Positions 2,952 to 49,621 of a DNA stretch of 64,000 nt are shown here, in pieces; positions within the stretch are counted from its first letter, which is position 1; each line of letters begins with the position of its first letter. Location: the NCBI RefSeq assembly GCF_007671675.1, contig NZ_VCGW01000002.1, positions 558,001 to 622,000 on the forward strand. Direction: 5' to 3'. Below the pieces are notes generated by a model. It did not search any database, had not been told where the DNA came from, and saw only the letters and a list, made by a program, of their open reading frames with translations. A program made the translations under genes and the position numbers. This DNA comes from Marinobacter maritimus (lineage in GTDB: Bacteria > Pseudomonadota > Gammaproteobacteria > Pseudomonadales > Oleiphilaceae).

Positions 2952-4298
2952 CTAGTCCCGCATCAGTTTCTCAAGGTAGTGAATGGTGAAGTCTACCGTT
3001 TTAAAGCCGCCATCGCGCACCAGTTTCCGATGCAAAGGCTGATTGGTTTTAATTCCTTCGATCAAAAGCTCATCAAGGGCGTTCTTCATTCGCCTCCGTG
3101 CTATCTGTCGATCGTCGCCCCAGGTAATCAGCTTGGCAATCAGTGAGTCGTAATACGGCGGAACCGTATAACCGCTGTAGAGGTGTGAATCCACCCGCAC
3201 GCCATAACCGCCAGGGGCATGGAAGTGCTTCACTTTGCCGGGGCTGGGCACAAAGGTATCGGGGTCTTCCGCGTTGATGCGGCATTCCATAGCGTGACCG
3301 CTGATGTGTATATCTTCCTGCTTGTACTGAAGCGGCAGGCCGCTTGCAATGCGCAATTGTTCGCGAACAATATCAACACCGGTAACCATTTCGGAGACCG
3401 GGTGCTCCACCTGCACGCGTGTGTTCATTTCAATGAAGAAGAACTCGCCATCCTGATACAGGAACTCAAAGGTGCCAGCGCCGACATAGCCGATTTCCTT
3501 ACAGGCATCCACGCAGGCCTTGAGTGTGCGCTCGCGGGATTCCGCATTGATGTTCGGAGCGGGCGCTTCTTCTATCACCTTCTGATTGCGACGCTGCATG
3601 GAGCAGTCACGGTCACCCAGGTGGATGCAGTTGCCGTGCATGTCCGCCAGAATCTGAACTTCCACGTGGCGTGGGGTTTCCAGAAACTTTTCCAGATAAA
3701 CCGTGGGGTCGCCAAAGGCATTCCGGGCCTCGGTCTGGGTAATCTGGACGGCCTTGAGCAGCGCAGCTTCGGAATGAACCACCTGCATGCCACGGCCGCC
3801 GCCGCCGGAGGCCGCCTTGATCATAACCGGATAGCCAATTCGGCGAGCAACTTGCAGGGTGCGCTCGTCATCCTCTGTCAGCGGACCGTCTGAGCCCGGG
3901 ACAGTGGGAACTCCGGCGCGAATCATCGCGTTAATGGCCGAAACCTTGTTGCCCATCAGGCGAATGGTTTCGGCTCGGGGACCGATGAAGCGGAAGCCGC
4001 TTTTTTCGACCTGTTCAGCGAAGTCGGCATTCTCGGCAAGAAAGCCGTAGCCCGGGTGGATGCCTACTGAATCCGTCACTTCAGCCGCGCTGATAATGGC
4101 TGGAATGTTGAGGTAGCTTTCCAAAGGGCTGTTGGGGCCGATACAGACGGATTCATCGGCCAGACGCACGTGCATCAGATCACGGTCAACCTGTGAATGA
4201 ACCGCTACGGTTTTGATGCCGAGCTCTTTACAGGCACGCAAGATCCGGAGGGCTATTTCACCCCGGTTTGCGATCAGAACTTTTTCTAACATGGCCAT
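2952..4298 (-). CDS. accC: Acetyl-CoA carboxylase, biotin carboxylase subunit
   Basis: 448 residues. AccC carboxylates the biotin on AccB with ATP and bicarbonate, the first half-reaction of malonyl-CoA synthesis. All three domains are visible: the N-terminal biotin-carboxylase domain ([13 protein letters not shown]), the ATP-grasp core with Gly-rich loop [11 protein letters not shown] (~159-169) and [12 protein letters not shown] (~288-299), and the C-terminal domain with the [12 protein letters not shown] motif. An ATG two codons later (4292) would give the shorter start typical of E. coli AccC. It lies 18 bases after accB, as in most bacteria. Confidence 0.98.
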
Positions 4299-4316
4299 GA
4301 GTAGCTATCACCGGGT

Positions 4317-4784
4317 TCAGGAAATGATTAACAGCGGCTGGTCAAACTCTACAGGTTGACCGTTATCAACCAGAATTTCTGTGACCGTACCGCTCTTGTC
4401 GGCCTCAATCTGGTTCATCATTTTCATGGCCTCTACGATGCAGACAACATCGCCGGCTTTAACCTGTTGGCCGATTTCTGCAAAAGAATCGGCTGTGGGA
4501 GAAGGCGCCCGGTAGAAAGTCCCAACCATGGGAGAACGCAGCGCGTGCCCGCTGTGAACTGTCTGCTGCGAGCTGTCTTCCTGAACTGGTCCCGGGGTTT
4601 CCGGTGCCGGAGCATACTGGGGCTGCGGTGGTGCATAGTGGCTGATGTACTGGCCGCCGGAAACCTGTTCACGACGACGCGAGATGCGAACAGAATCATC
4701 GCCCTCGTGAATCTCAAGCTCTTCGACGTCAGACTCCTCGAGCAGTTCGATCAGTTTCTTGATTTTGCGAATATCCATAGTCAA
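4317..4784 (-). CDS. accB: Acetyl-CoA carboxylase, biotin carboxyl carrier protein
   Basis: 155 residues. AccB carries biotin between the carboxylase and transferase subunits. An N-terminal helical interaction segment (~1-35) is followed by a Pro/Ala/Gln-rich flexible linker (~45-75) and the biotinyl domain (~80-155). The biotinylation motif EAMKMMN puts the modified lysine at about residue 121. The 'thumb' sequence typical of AccB ([11 protein letters not shown]) is present. It is 21 bases downstream of aroQ, the usual aroQ-accB-accC order. Confidence 0.98.
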
Positions 4785-4805
4785 TCCAGTCCCGTGTTGT
4801 CAGGT

Positions 4806-5246
4806 CTATCGGTGAGTTCGTTGCATGGCGGCCTGAAGCGCGAGGTCGTACCCCTGGCTGCCCAGTCCACAGATAACGCCTTCGGCGATATCGGAAAAAT
4901 AGGAGTGATGGCGGAATGTTTCTCGCGCATGCACGTTTGAAAGATGCACTTCTATAAATGGAATTCCTGAAGCCAGTATGGCATCCCGCAAGGCAATGCT
5001 GGTGTGGGTGAAGGCAGCAGGATTGATAATGATGAAATCCACACCTTCTGCCCGCGCCTCGTGAATCCGCTCGATCAGTTCGTATTCAGCGTTGGATTGA
5101 AGATGCAACAAGTGGTGCCCTTGATCTGCTGCCTTATTCCGCAACCGGTCATCGATGTCTGCCAGAGTCTCGTGGCCATAAACCTCAGGCTCGCGGGTTC
5201 CGAGCATGTTCAGGTTTGGACCATGGAGCACGAGAATTGTCGACAT
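4806..5246 (-). CDS. aroQ: Type II 3-dehydroquinate dehydratase
   Basis: 146 residues. It dehydrates 3-dehydroquinate to 3-dehydroshikimate in the shikimate pathway as a dodecamer. The start is the ATG at 5246, giving [16 protein letters not shown], the conserved family N-terminus; an upstream in-frame ATG at 5309 would add 21 unrelated residues. The lid/active-site stretch REPEVYG with the essential Tyr, the [16 protein letters not shown] block and the VHLSN(V)HARE histidine motif are all present. A weak AAAGG Shine-Dalgarno lies about 12 bases upstream. It is the first gene of the acc operon. Confidence 0.97.
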
Positions 5247-44754: not shown

Positions 44755-46236
44755 ATGGCCGTTAAACAGGCAGACGTAGTGCTGGTCGGTGGTGGTGTCA
44801 TGAGCGCCACTCTCGGTGTGATGCTAAGGCAACTCGATCCGTCCATGAAAATCGTCATGTTGGAGCGTCTTGATCACGTTGCTCATGAAAGCACGGATGG
44901 ATGGAACAACGCAGGAACCGGACACGCAGGGTACTGCGAACTGAACTACACGCCCGAGACTGAAGACGGCGATGTGGCCATCGAGCGTGCGCTGCAAATC
45001 AATGCCCAATATGAAGTTTCTCTGCAGTTCTGGTCGCACCTGGTAGAGCAGGGGCTGTTGCCGGAGCCTTCTAAATTCATTAATCGCACACCGCACCAGA
45101 GTTTTGTCTGGGGTGAAAAAGATGTGGCTTTTCTCAAACGTCGTCATGAGCGTTTGAGCGCCCATCACTTGTTCCGCGACATGGAATACACCGAGTCGCC
45201 AAGGGATCTGGAAGATTGGATGCCGCTGGTGGTCCAGGGCCGGGATCCGATGCAACGCGTTGCCGCCACCCGTATCCGCCACGGATCGGATGTGGATTTC
45301 GGTTCGTTGACTCGAAACATGGTCGATTACCTGCAAAGCCAGCCCAACTTTGAGTTGATGCTGGGATGCCCGGTGCATTACATAGATCAGCGCGATAATG
45401 GCCGCTGGAAGATTCGGGTGAAAAACCAGCACACAGGTGAACAGACCAAACTGGAAACCGGTTTTGTGTTCCTCGGCGCTGGCGGCGGTGCACTGCCGCT
45501 GCTGCAGAAATCCGGCATTGACGAGGCGCGTGGCTATGGTGGCTTCCCCGTTAGCGGTCAATGGCTGGTGTGCCGCAAGCCCGAGGTGGTAACTCAGCAT
45601 CACGCCAAGGTATATGGCAAGGCGCCTATTGGTGCGCCTCCCATGTCGGTACCGCATCTGGATACCCGTATTATCAATGGTGAACCGGCTCTGTTGTTTG
45701 GCCCATTTGCCGGCTTTACCACCCGTTTTCTCAAACAGGGCTCCATCTTTGATTTGTTTGGTTCGGTGCGCACAACCAACCTCAAGCCGATGTTGTCGGT
45801 GAGCAAAAGCAACATGGACCTTACTCGCTATCTGATTGGCGAAGTGTTTCAGTCTCACAGTGACCGTGTTGAAGCGCTACGTAACTTTTTCCCGGAAGCG
45901 GAGGAAGCCAACTGGGAACTGCGTAATGCCGGCCAGCGAGTTCAGATTATCAAACAGGCTGAAGGCGGCGGCGGAAAGCTGGAATTTGGTACCGAAATTG
46001 TCGCTTCAAAAGACGGCACCCTGGCGGCCTTGCTAGGGGCGTCTCCTGGTGCTTCTACAGCCGCTAATGCGATGATCAGCGTGATCGAACGTTGCTTCCC
46101 GGATAGTGTCAAAACGGCTGAATGGCAGGCGCGCATGAAGCGGATGGTGCCTTCCTACGGCCAGTCTCTGGTGGACGATGAAGCGCTGCTGACGAAGGTG
46201 CGAGAAAGAACGCTCGCTACCTTGAAGTTGCGCTGA
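44755..46236 (+). CDS. mqo: Malate:quinone oxidoreductase
   Basis: About 493 residues. This FAD enzyme on the inner membrane face oxidises malate to oxaloacetate and reduces quinone. The N-terminal FAD motif is DVVLVGGGVMSATLG, then ERLDHVAHESTDGWNNAGTGHAGYCELNYTP. The ATG at 44755 is favoured by GGTGA seven bases upstream; GTG 44743 would add four residues. Together with fumC it covers the malate end of the TCA cycle. Confidence 0.95.
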   Translation: MAVKQADVVLVGGGVMSATLGVMLRQLDPSMKIVMLERLDHVAHESTDGWNNAGTGHAGYCELNYTPETEDGDVAIERALQINAQYEVSLQFWSHLVEQGLLPEPSKFINRTPHQSFVWGEKDVAFLKRRHERLSAHHLFRDMEYTESPRDLEDWMPLVVQGRDPMQRVAATRIRHGSDVDFGSLTRNMVDYLQSQPNFELMLGCPVHYIDQRDNGRWKIRVKNQHTGEQTKLETGFVFLGAGGGALPLLQKSGIDEARGYGGFPVSGQWLVCRKPEVVTQHHAKVYGKAPIGAPPMSVPHLDTRIINGEPALLFGPFAGFTTRFLKQGSIFDLFGSVRTTNLKPMLSVSKSNMDLTRYLIGEVFQSHSDRVEALRNFFPEAEEANWELRNAGQRVQIIKQAEGGGGKLEFGTEIVASKDGTLAALLGASPGASTAANAMISVIERCFPDSVKTAEWQARMKRMVPSYGQSLVDDEALLTKVRERTLATLKLR

Positions 46237-46309
46237 AGCTGGGCTGACATTTGCGATTTTCACTCATCGGCGTAGGGTAAAGGGACATATTGAGATAAGG
46301 AGATAGCCG

Positions 46310-47542
46310 ATGAGCGAGCAAGAATATGACCCGGAAAAGGGGTATGTCGCACTTCTTGGCTGGAGCCTGAATGCCGTAGAGGCTGCAGACAAATTTGATC
46401 GCCGCTACGTGGTTGTTGCCCCGGATTGGGCAGAGGCGTACTGCGAAGAGCATGACATTCCCTACGTGCCCTGGAACTTTGAGCGCCTCAACGACCGCTC
46501 CGTAGAAATTGCGCAGACCCTCAAGGATATGGGAGTGGATGTTTCCATCCCCCTGTTTGAAGAAACCGTTGAGTGGGCCGGCGCGATTAACTCGGTGTTG
46601 ATGGACAAACCGCGATTGTTTGGCCAAGCCATGCTGTTGCGTGACAAAGCGCTGATGAAGCGCCGTGCCCAGCTTGGCGGTATTCGTGTAGGCATTTTTG
46701 AAGAGGCCCACGACAAAGGCGATGTCATCCGCTTCCTCAAGCGCGTTAACCAGACACTGCTCAAGCTTGATGGCGATCCCAACGACCCGATTCACCTGAA
46801 AGCCTTCGATAAGGCCGGTTGTCTCGGCCACCGGGTAATCCGCACACCGGACGAGGTGGATTCCATTCCGGATGAAGAGTTCCCCGTGCTTATGGAGTCG
46901 CACCTTGATGGCTGGGAGTTTGCCGTAGAGGCCTGGATCCATAATGGCAAAATCGCATTCCTGAACATCTCCGAGTACGTCACTCTGGGCTACTCTGTTT
47001 TCGTGCCCGCCACGCCGGATCTTGAAAAGTACCGTGACCAGATTCGCGGTGAAATCGAAAAACTGATCAAGACCTTCGATATTGATTTCGGCTTTGTTCA
47101 CCCGGAATACTTCGTGACCAGCGACAGCACCATGTACTTTGGTGAAGTGGCTTACCGGCCACCCGGGTTCAAGGTTTTCGAACTGCTTGAAAAGGCCTAT
47201 GGTTTTAACGCATACCAGGGGCTTATTCTGGCTTTCGATCCCAAAACCACGCAGGAAGAAATCCAAGCTTTCTTCCCGAAAGAGGTGGAGGATGCCAAGG
47301 GCTATGCGGGCTGCTTTGGTGTGTACCCACGACGCAGGGTTGTCAGCAAGCTCGAGATTCCCGAAGAGACCGAGAATCATGAGTATTTTGAATCCCATGA
47401 GCTGACGCCGCCGGTTGAAGAAACCGTCACCAAGCGCACAGCATTCGGCACTCACTGGGGCCTGGTGTATTTCTTCGGTGAGGATCCGTACGTTATGCGT
47501 GATCTGCTGAAACATCAGGAAGATCTGGATTTCTATGTATAA
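46310..47542 (+). CDS. ATP-grasp domain protein of unknown substrate
   Basis: 410 residues. ATP-grasp features: a Rossmann-like N-terminus (VALLGWSLNAVEAADKFDRRYVVVAPD), the RLFGQAMLLRDKALMKRRAQLGG region, a central MESHLDGWEFAVEAWIHNG strand pair, and the late metal-binding block FGEVAYRPPGFKVFELL (~281-297). The usual Asn after the Glu is replaced. These enzymes ligate a carboxylate to an amine through an acyl-phosphate. No carboxylase or purine-type signature is seen. AAGGAGA precedes ATG 46310. It lies 54 bases upstream of a gene with a cysteine-hydrolase-like pattern, so the two probably act together. Confidence 0.8.
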   Translation: MSEQEYDPEKGYVALLGWSLNAVEAADKFDRRYVVVAPDWAEAYCEEHDIPYVPWNFERLNDRSVEIAQTLKDMGVDVSIPLFEETVEWAGAINSVLMDKPRLFGQAMLLRDKALMKRRAQLGGIRVGIFEEAHDKGDVIRFLKRVNQTLLKLDGDPNDPIHLKAFDKAGCLGHRVIRTPDEVDSIPDEEFPVLMESHLDGWEFAVEAWIHNGKIAFLNISEYVTLGYSVFVPATPDLEKYRDQIRGEIEKLIKTFDIDFGFVHPEYFVTSDSTMYFGEVAYRPPGFKVFELLEKAYGFNAYQGLILAFDPKTTQEEIQAFFPKEVEDAKGYAGCFGVYPRRRVVSKLEIPEETENHEYFESHELTPPVEETVTKRTAFGTHWGLVYFFGEDPYVMRDLLKHQEDLDFYV

Positions 47543-47596
47543 TCGGGCGATGCATTAACAACTATAGGGCCTGGCTCAGGCCCTGAGGAACATCGT

Positions 47597-49621
47597 TTGA
47601 ACGATCAACAATCGGGCAATGCAGCTCCTGTTGTGAATCTGGAAAAATTGGCGACAAAGCTGGATGATTCGATTCGGGTTCTGGAAGAAAGCCGGTCGTT
47701 CGCCAAGCTTGGAAAGTTGCCGCAGGTATTTGATCTTGTCCGCAGGATACTGCTGCAGCCGGGAGGCTGCGCAATCGTGGAAGCGCGAGCAGAACGCCTG
47801 GAAAACGCCGGGGTTTTTACTGGCACCGACTGGGCGGAGCCGGGGATTCTGCTCCCCTCATTAACGACCTACGCTCTGCAAAGCAAGAATACAGACACGG
47901 TGGTTATTGAAGCGCTCAGTGAGCTTCGCCTGTTGGCGGTTGCTCGCGGCATGTATTCGCACCCCACGGTGTCGGCCGAGCAGGCCCACCACTACCTGAC
48001 TCAGGTTCTCGCAATCAACCTTGGTCTGCTGTTTGGCATGACCGGCGAAGCTGAGCGCGAACAGGGCAAGCTGGCGCTCATCAGCCAACACGCCGTGCAG
48101 CACGTAGCTCGGCACATTGGTTACGAACATGTTATCGATAGCCTGATTGAAGAAATCTGGCGAATTCTGCAGCAGCGGCCAATTCAGGTAGCTGGCGTGC
48201 GCAAGATGATCACTCAGATTGCTATTTGCCGGGCGGAGCCAGAAGCCGATCTCGGCAGTGCGGGGCGCGGAGCAGATCGGCTGATCTCCAGCCTTTACGG
48301 CCCGACTCGAGGCTGCAGTGAGGATCCGGGGACCGTGGTTTACCAGCAGCGTCTGGAAACCATGGATTCCCAAACATTGCAAAATGAAGCCACCGGGTTT
48401 GCACGCTCCATGCATGACACCGGCCTGGTCTCTCCCTACCATGCATCCTTTGTACGCTACATTCTGGAAGGCCAGGATAATCTTCTCAGCGAAGCGCTGG
48501 GGCTTTCCAGTACAGGTCGCGACTGCCTGATGTGTTATCGGGAGCTTGTTTATACCCTGATCACCGAGGGTATTTTTCCCGAAACTGCACAGGGCCTATA
48601 CGGCCTGGCGCTCTTGCTGGAACGGGGCATTCTCTACCAGCCACCCGTAGCGCCTGCGCTCTGGCGTCAGGCCCGGCTGAACCTGTGCCCGCAGGCCCGT
48701 GAGCGCCTGCAGCTTGCCTACGGCTATCAGCCGCAAGCCGGCGCCTGGTTGATTCAGGGCGTGCTGAATATTCTGGGACAGCCGCTGGGCGTTGGCCAGG
48801 GAAACAACCCGACCTGCCAATCCGCCCGGGCGCTTTCCATGTGGGCCTACAACGATCCGGACTATCTGTTGCAGATGGTTGCTTGGGCCGCCCGTGACAA
48901 CGAAATTGTCATGCACTTTGAAGGTCAGCCTGTTTCCTCGGCGCGCAGCCTTGGTGGCGTGGCTTCGGAAGTAACCTTTGATCTGGATCCGGTATCTCTG
49001 GTGGTAGTACCACACCTTGACCGAATATACGGCGAGATGGGCCGCATGTGCATCGGGCGCGAAGGCGATCCACACAGATGGGTGAACCCGGAATTCCATG
49101 GCTGGTCTGCGGGGCGAGGTTTTGCAATCAACGTGGATGTGGCCACCGGTAATCTGGATGACCTGGAAGGGTTTATCCGGCATTTCTACGCCAGCTACCA
49201 CCCCTACTACAACGGTAATCAGCCGCTCATACATCCTCAGCCTGCCGGTATTGCGGTCACGGACAGGGCAGCGCGATTTATCGGCTGGCACGCAATAACG
49301 ATTCTTCGGGTGGCGTTGGACCCGGAAGGCGAGATGCGGGTGTATTTTTACAATCCAAACAACGACAGCGGCCAGAGCTGGGGCGATGATGTACACGTGG
49401 GCACGGAGGGCTGTGGCGAAAGATTCGGTGAGGCGTCTCTGCCGTTAGAACAGTTTGCCTCCCGACTCTACATCTTTCACTACGATCCGCTAGAACGTGG
49501 TGAGCCTGCGGATGTAGGGGAAGAGGAGCTGCAGCGAGTGATGGAGCGAGTCTATCGAAGCTGGGGCGAGAACCGTCTGCCCGCAAAAGAGCTGCAGGCC
49601 GAGCCGCCGCAGGCCGAATAG
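47597..49621 (+). CDS. 674-residue protein of unknown function with papain-like Cys/His/Asn pattern
   Basis: It starts at TTG 47597 behind a GAGGAA Shine-Dalgarno. The N-terminal ~380 residues are helix-rich with no recognised domain. The C-terminal part has GQGNNPTCQSARALSMW with C407 and Q401 six residues earlier, the same spacing as the oxyanion Gln and catalytic Cys of papain. GWHAITILRV with H565 and VYFYNPNNDSGQSWG with Asn 586/588/589 follow. This suggests a cysteine peptidase, amidase or transglutaminase-like enzyme (inference). No signal peptide or membrane helix. It forms a pair with the ATP-grasp gene, and I recognise no named family. Confidence 0.7.
   Translation: MNDQQSGNAAPVVNLEKLATKLDDSIRVLEESRSFAKLGKLPQVFDLVRRILLQPGGCAIVEARAERLENAGVFTGTDWAEPGILLPSLTTYALQSKNTDTVVIEALSELRLLAVARGMYSHPTVSAEQAHHYLTQVLAINLGLLFGMTGEAEREQGKLALISQHAVQHVARHIGYEHVIDSLIEEIWRILQQRPIQVAGVRKMITQIAICRAEPEADLGSAGRGADRLISSLYGPTRGCSEDPGTVVYQQRLETMDSQTLQNEATGFARSMHDTGLVSPYHASFVRYILEGQDNLLSEALGLSSTGRDCLMCYRELVYTLITEGIFPETAQGLYGLALLLERGILYQPPVAPALWRQARLNLCPQARERLQLAYGYQPQAGAWLIQGVLNILGQPLGVGQGNNPTCQSARALSMWAYNDPDYLLQMVAWAARDNEIVMHFEGQPVSSARSLGGVASEVTFDLDPVSLVVVPHLDRIYGEMGRMCIGREGDPHRWVNPEFHGWSAGRGFAINVDVATGNLDDLEGFIRHFYASYHPYYNGNQPLIHPQPAGIAVTDRAARFIGWHAITILRVALDPEGEMRVYFYNPNNDSGQSWGDDVHVGTEGCGERFGEASLPLEQFASRLYIFHYDPLERGEPADVGEEELQRVMERVYRSWGENRLPAKELQAEPPQAE

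Follow-up and report, generated by a model that had tools for sequence, protein, structure and literature searches.

A conserved gene pair of Marinobacter maritimus encoding a probable ATP-grasp ligase and a predicted papain-like enzyme: a candidate two-enzyme amide system

Introduction

Which reaction might join an ATP-grasp ligase to a papain-like thiol enzyme encoded directly beside it? The question is raised by two genes, here called p1 and p2, in a 64,000-nucleotide stretch of the genome of Marinobacter maritimus (assembly GCF_007671675.1, contig NZ_VCGW01000002.1, positions 558,001 to 622,000 of the forward strand). This whole stretch is referred to as the window. A first-pass annotation made from the sequence letters had described p1 and p2 as a same-strand unit with a gap of 54 bases, and the open reading frames (ORFs) verify both the coordinates and the + strand. 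Judged from sequence, the most likely division of labor is that p1 makes an amide that the p2 thiol hydrolyses or transfers. A narrower reading, in which p1 makes and p2 hydrolyses the amide and a variable half of p2 sets the partner, is based on sequence and a structural model and is held tentatively, with confidence a little short of even.

Joint presence and absence of p1 and p2

The two genes are present or absent together in three overlapping samples of 58, 274, and 398 genomes. Among the 58 related genomes, p1 and p2 occur in the identical 34, and neither occurs in the identical 24. Four genomes of the genus with an estimated completeness of 99-100% (G005, G012, G013, and G031) are without both genes. 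In the class sample of 274 genomes, p2 was found in eight, that of M. maritimus included, and these are exactly the eight that carry a p1 of at least 81% identity. The ten further p1 matches in this sample are distant and partial ATP-grasp matches with 24-36% identity. Likewise, 11 of the 398 genomes in the phylum sample have p2; seven of the 11 are from outside the genus, and all seven have an adjoining p1.

The physical linkage was followed in 80 named loci, which are the best 80 of at least 579 matches. p1 lies directly upstream of p2 on the same strand in 76 of them, as a single full-length match in 74, in two pieces in L064, and cut by the contig end in L134. The two pieces in L064 (6715-7943) reflect either a frameshift or a sequencing error. 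In the remaining four loci, p1 is absent within 8 kb (three loci) or reduced to a 31-residue remnant (one locus). Other clades show p1 divergent from or convergent with p2, and four arrangements were seen in all, including one in G316 where p1 lies downstream of p2, on the same strand and 1.4 kb away (p2 at 378-2336, p1 at 3717-4934). In a tree drawn from p2 rows thinned to 30, with the G316 row counted as having no arrangement, the same-strand upstream order requires at least two changes. The p1-p2 linkage has therefore survived rearrangement. The conserved co-occurrence and neighborhood on which the first-pass annotation made its reading depend are thus found in these samples. Fusions of the two genes, also suggested there for survey, were not seen in the 80 named loci: in 75 of them p1 ends in a stop codon after residue 410, and the remaining five have no aligned p1 end.

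A probable amide ligase

p1 belongs to the ATP-grasp enzymes. The Pfam family ATP-grasp_4 matches 12 of 12 p1 members (best E-value 4.3e-06), and the p1 of the window itself scores 19.8 bits, short of the gathering cut-off of 27 set by Pfam. A profile built from 12 p1 relatives and compared with solved proteins gave BL00235 (3vot, E 0.0011) and RizA (4wd3, E 0.0038) as the top two of ten matches. The same two proteins lead when a predicted p1 model, itself weak, is aligned by structure: 3vot is best (Z 9.3, root-mean-square deviation (rmsd) 3.6, 141 residues), 4wd3 is second (Z 8.9, rmsd 3.9, 131 residues), and an entry for phosphoribosylglycinamide synthetase is third (Z 8.1).

Further evidence comes from residue conservation. 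Because many loci overlap as views of the same place, counts here and below use distinct sequences; loci too short for the alignments are omitted from them, which removes 22 of 164 for p2 and 4 of 142 for p1. K164, G170, G173, E203, E207, H264, E266, E279, and R283 of p1 do not vary across the 111 distinct rows. The active-site lysine, acidic metal ligands, and arginine of ATP-grasp enzymes are accordingly present and invariant as K164, E266, E279, and R283, with the presumed role of each taken from the ATP-grasp family. The enzyme as a whole changes little, and its identity to the p1 of the window is 74-99% over 45 full-length matches in the related genomes.

The first-pass annotation called p1 an ATP-grasp protein without known substrate motifs. 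The ligase type stands, while the second part gives way to a remote kinship by profile with the L-amino acid ligases, enzymes that join free amino acids. p1 resembles this group (BL00235, RizA, BacD/YwfE) in its best profile and structure matches, and the C-terminal domain LAL_C2 (PF18603) occurs in the two proteins outside the family that match p1 best (partial matches with 33% and 36% identity). It differs from the group in falling below the ATP-grasp_4 cut-off and in matching LAL_C2 in just 1 of 12 members, weakly (E 0.18). These results make it probable that p1 works as an amide ligase and belongs to the L-amino acid ligase neighborhood.

A predicted papain-like enzyme

What kind of enzyme is p2? 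It matches no Pfam family at the cut-off and no NCBIfam family. None of the papain-like families of Pfam (C1, C2, CHAP, NlpC/P60, BtrH_N, DUF3335) is found in p2 at E-values up to 10, and the same is true of 22 p2 C-terminal domains searched up to that value with the HMMER filters on. An AlphaFold2 model of p2 is good (mean predicted local distance difference test (pLDDT) score 84.1, predicted template modelling score 0.76). It consists of helices from residue 15 to 394 followed by a domain that contains Cys407, His565, and Asn586. VIA-align, run over the Foldseek candidates, placed a calpain-3 core at the top (Z 8.4, rmsd 4.3, 208 residues, 12% identity). Other calpain cores followed at Z 7.1-8.4, and then staphopains, C1 peptidases, and bleomycin hydrolase. 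By title, 44 of the 50 listed rows belong to the papain superfamily, aligned within p2 residues 345-641. The absence of a family from this fold list is not counted as its exclusion.

The predicted catalytic residues stand where a papain-type fold would have them, and the prediction supports the fold that the first-pass annotation had read from their spacing. Gln401, Cys407, His565, and the Asn586-Pro587-Asn588-Asn589 segment are located in p2 as described there. Their order is that of the papain-like superfamily on its calpain/C1 side (Gln-x5-Cys, His, Asn), with the cysteine opening the core helix. An Asn-Pro after the core strand is shared with the calpain family, of which three bacterial sequences recovered read R-N-P-W-G near the catalytic end. 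The invariance that had been suggested as a check is complete: none of 127 distinct full-length rows, the window among them, departs from Q401, C407, H565, N586, P587, and N588, and the same residues are kept by all 49 rows obtained in whole-genome searches and by all 22 rows that share less than 75% identity with one another. In other words, no homologue among the 127 rows is without the catalytic cysteine. The p2 copies in the alignment that have no neighboring p1 also keep the catalytic residues. For the 77 rows that came from a contig scan with two patterns, one of them YF[FY]NPN[NR]D, the constancy of N586-N588 is in part a result of the selection; that of C407 and H565 is not.

p2 also differs from the papain-like superfamily in a set of invariant residues. 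D475, H493, W495, E499, and Q548, between the core helix and the histidine strand, are invariant in the 127 rows, and H473 and H535 are nearly so (126 of 127 each). The whole region covers p2 residues 440-548 (window 48914-49240), and the conserved residues from H473 to Q548 may line a substrate (or metal) pocket. On the strength of the model, p2 appears to be a papain-like family that is missing from Pfam. Both p1 and p2 look cytosolic, as neither has a signal-like hydrophobic start by eye.

Gene copies and rates of change

p2 is present in more copies than p1. The 34 genomes contain 69 p2 matches of at least 600 residues, some of which carry flagged stop codons, versus 46 p1 matches of at least 390 residues. 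In the genome of the window, p2 is present three times and p1 twice. Paralogues of p2 that have no adjoining p1 occupy varied neighborhoods, as judged by eye. One p2 (G035:C1:3635047-3637058) is in two pieces, due to a frameshift or a sequencing error.

In five genomes (G004, G015, G022, G026, and G030), the p1 adjoining this p2 is decayed or missing, and a full-length p1 paralogue is found elsewhere. These genomes are a natural test of whether a p1 paralogue can serve p2. Two of them show opposite losses at two loci. In G022, this locus has a near-full-length p2 with no p1 within 1.5 kb, and a second locus has an intact p1 with a 44-residue p2 remnant, which leaves the genome with one near-full-length p2 and one p1 in total. 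In G026, p2 at this locus is accompanied by a 40-residue p1 remnant, a second locus has an intact p1 and a truncated p2, and one further near-full-length p2 lies elsewhere. All 34 p2-bearing genomes therefore hold at least one full-length p1.

The two halves of p2 change at different rates. Over the same 21 rows, identity to the window is 34-71% for the helical domain and 54-83% for the C-terminal domain. In L059, the most divergent p2, identity is 34% in the helical half and 55% in the catalytic half, and the accompanying p1 is still 82% identical. The pattern suggests that the ligase product stays constant and the p2 partners vary.

What reaction do the two proteins share?

On the tentatively favored reading, p1 and p2 would constitute a self-contained cytosolic two-enzyme system. 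p1 would spend ATP in turning a carboxylate into an acyl phosphate and couple the activated acyl group to an amine, yielding an amide; its ATP-grasp family and its L-amino acid ligase kinship point this way. Cys407 of p2, aided by His565, Asn586, and an oxyanion hole at Gln401, would attack an amide of the same type, and a thioester would form from which the acyl group is released to water. Ligation and cleavage could thereby be controlled separately. The variable helical half of p2 would set the partner or substrate, and copy numbers and rates are consistent with a single conserved ligase serving several p2 versions per cell.

Several points weigh against this reading. The predicted model of p1 is poor (mean pLDDT 53.4). 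The fold assignment of p2 depends on one prediction, for which Foldseek returned nothing at an E-value of 0.001 or better (best 0.082), and a Z of 8.4 is barely above the level that VIA-align calls unremarkable. A profile search of the catalytic half of p2 against solved proteins revealed no sequence relation to any of them, and profile alignments of p2 to small sets of calpain, C1, and DUF3335 sequences did not reach significance. The best stretches of these insignificant alignments, which are suggestive only, matched Q401 and C407 to the Gln-Cys of calpain and H565 to the C1 histidine; in the DUF3335 alignment, the catalytic residues of the two proteins were not paired. As Foldseek gave no match at that level, the p2 fold assignment rests on fold rank, residue order, and invariance together. 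Furthermore, p2 paralogues without a p1 within about 5 kb exist, and linkage is therefore not needed for every copy. Finally, the results here do not separate hydrolysis by p2 from acyl transfer.

Acyl transfer is the basis of the best surviving alternative, a biosynthetic relay, which we regard as unlikely. In such a relay, p1 would make an acyl-amide or peptide, and p2 would act as a cysteine acyltransferase, of the kind seen in BtrH or phytochelatin synthase, that hands the acyl group on to another amine; the two enzymes would build one product, and neither would undo the work of the other. The high conservation of p1 suits one fixed product. PMC2922099 predicts papain-fold BtrH-type transacylases in operons that can also hold ATP-grasp ligases, and PMC10318531 groups phytochelatin synthase and BtrH with papain and calpains in one papain-like cluster. 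However, the loci share no carrier protein, transporter, or tailoring enzyme, and no ORF of at least 100 codons other than those of the pair and their antisense frames occurs in more than 37 of the 80. The surplus of p2 without a second ligase (69 vs 46) is also unexpected for a simple two-step relay.

A second alternative, protein tagging, is improbable. Here p1 would modify proteins with an amino acid or another small group, which members of the p2 family would remove or exchange, each p2 finding different targets via its helical half. In its favor, several p2 copies share one or two p1 in some genomes. The N-terminal domain of p2 is long and helical and varies fastest, and its low-significance Foldseek matches include HEAT/ARM proteins. 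These HEAT/ARM matches are insignificant, however (E 0.08-1), and the ORF comparison in the 80 named loci revealed no conserved nearby tag protein or target gene. The nearest solved relatives of p1 are also named L-amino acid ligases, which act on free amino acids and not on proteins. A third alternative, very doubtful, is that p2 acts as an endopeptidase on a protein, which may be p1 or a substrate, and is linked to p1 by regulation with no shared amide: the closest folds to its catalytic half are indeed peptidases (calpain, staphopain, cathepsins), but papain-fold enzymes are often non-peptidases according to PMC10318531, and a p1 paralogue seemingly replaces the lost neighbor in G022 and G026, a stand-in that would favor a shared small product over specific cleavage.

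Comparison with known systems

The pairing of a ligase with a papain-like thiol enzyme has precedents. The first-pass annotation likened p1 and p2 to glutathionylspermidine synthetase/amidase, in which an ATP-grasp ligase and a papain-like thiol amidase of the CHAP type form one fused protein. The analogy is sound in principle and fails in particulars: a Pfam scan gave neither its GSP_synth ligase nor its CHAP domain at E-values up to 10, the pair consists of two genes instead of a fused chain, and the best p2 folds are calpain and papain.

BtrH-type enzymes carry out acyl transfer through a thiol. Operons that hold them together with ATP-grasp ligases combine the same enzyme classes as the pair, as predicted in PMC2922099 and consistent with PMC10318531, a 2023 classification of papain-like proteins in which BtrH and phytochelatin synthase cluster with papain and calpain. 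Unlike in these systems, BtrH_N is not reported for p2 and no conserved biosynthetic cluster surrounds the pair. The earlier statement that no known family combines the two enzymes is thus correct for the p1 and p2 families themselves and too broad for ATP-grasp and BtrH-type operons, which are in print. A literature search, with subscription papers outside its scope, found no description of the p1-p2 pair; this absence is weak evidence because a gene pair without a name is not easily traced by text search.

PMC10318531 also describes a papain-like domain, DUF3335, fused to domains that possibly act as peptide ligases. The genome of the window encodes such a fusion, GNAT-DUF3335 (PF11814; L183:5926-7161, contig G000:C10), which belongs to another, already known papain-like family. 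It is like the pair in joining a papain-like domain to a possible peptide-ligase domain and differs from p2 in its fusion to an acetyltransferase and in having no significant profile match to p2. Because both are encoded in the same genome, the p1-p2 pair is separate from GNAT-DUF3335. No ATP-grasp gene was recognised beside the fusion in a 10-kb stretch of which two ORFs alone were family-scanned. By eye, the fusion gene adjoins a 694-codon ORF that resembles uvrB.

The locus and its surroundings

Features of the p1-p2 locus, with positions in the window and the basis of each assignment
Feature	Position	Strand	Basis
Ribosome-binding-like AAGGAG before p1	46297..46302	+	sequence, inference
p1, 410 residues; ATP-grasp amide/peptide ligase (probable), remote L-amino acid ligase relative	46310..47542	+	ORF, Pfam, profile matches
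Putative ATP-grasp core of p1, residues 193-280, with E203, E207, H264, E266, E279	46886..47149	+	Pfam stretch
Hairpin AGGGCCTG-GCT-CAGGCCCT, directly before the p2 ribosome-binding site	47566..47584	+	sequence, pairing comparison
Ribosome-binding-like GAGGAA before the p2 start	47585..47590	+	sequence; similar in nearer Marinobacter loci
p2, 674 residues; helical N-terminal half and predicted papain-fold C-terminal half	47597..49621	+	ORF, AlphaFold2 model
p2 N-terminal all-helical domain, residues 13-362	47633..48682	+	model secondary structure; fastest-varying part
p2 C-terminal predicted papain-fold domain, residues 363-636	48683..49504	+	VIA-align
Gln401, predicted oxyanion-hole residue	48797..48799	+	Q-x5-C spacing, invariance
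Cys407, predicted nucleophile, first residue of helix 407-419	48815..48817	+	invariance, model
His565, predicted catalytic histidine in strand 561-574	49289..49291	+	invariance, model
Asn586-Pro-Asn-Asn, Asn586 likely triad Asn, directly after strand 580-585	49352..49363	+	invariance, model

p2 starts with TTG, and a similar start is present in nearer Marinobacter. The pairing of the hairpin that precedes it is kept in 99.5% of 182 pair cells from 26 distinct nearer-Marinobacter sequences. Changes in it are mostly between G-C and G-U, there is a single two-sided change, and the covariation score was reached by 9 of 500 shuffles. More distant Marinobacter (e.g. L091, L092, L100, L110, and L119) and other genera have different spacers between p1 and p2. 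The hairpin possibly controls p2 translation.

The genes on both sides are unrelated to the pair, as the first-pass annotation had said. mqo (malate:quinone oxidoreductase; NCBIfam 914 bits) lies 73 bases upstream on the + strand, and 21 bases downstream is a convergent gene for a protein with CheW and response-regulator domains, which is the CheV architecture. In an all-against-all comparison of ORFs of at least 100 codons across the 80 named loci, p2 was found in 80 and p1 in 75, and p2, p1, and ORFs antisense to both are all that more than half of the loci share. The next most shared are mqo and a Ca/Na antiporter-type gene (37 loci each). A larger operon or third partner was rejected, as no third gene besides the antisense ORFs exceeds this number among the 40 largest clusters. 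For ORFs of 25-99 codons within 1.5 kb, the largest cluster covers 36 loci, of which 35 are Marinobacter, and none of the eight largest clusters listed includes more than one non-Marinobacter host. The neighborhoods of seven further pair loci (L186-L192) were inspected by eye. An antisense ORF that covers nearly all of p1 (46217-47515, - strand, 432 codons) was considered as a true gene and judged to be a codon-usage artefact, because p1 has a family match and its codon changes are mostly synonymous (169 synonymous vs 23 non-synonymous in the p1 frame between the window and L061).

Host range and significance

The hosts of the best 80 named loci are 37 Marinobacter, 35 members of genera of the Halomonadaceae, and 8 others. 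No salt-adaptation claim is made, because these are the best 80 of at least 579 and there is no named non-halophile control set. A mobile-element, phage, or defence origin was also considered and is unsupported. The pair has no match in 50,697 phage records, and none of 152 pattern matches in viral contigs was confirmed. PADLOC profiles of anti-phage defence gave no family for p1 or p2 at E-values up to 1, and a PHROG comparison of both proteins gave weak noise alone. One of 72,556 plasmid records matches, and this is a 1.8-Mb Halomonas replicon.

The pair is common in Marinobacter and Halomonadaceae, groups that are studied in biotechnology and marine chemistry, and the joint presence or absence of its genes in all genomes compared suggests a chemical partnership of p1 and p2. 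The p2 cysteine is an obvious target for mutation, both genes can be deleted, jointly or one at a time, in non-pathogenic hosts, and the amide question is open to metabolomics and proteomics. One further scheme, to which we give a low probability, is that the conserved ligase marks proteins or one abundant metabolite and an expandable papain-fold family, whose members each have a helical recognition half of their own, removes or transfers the mark. If this is true, marine and halophilic Gammaproteobacteria would possess a new pathway of reversible modification.

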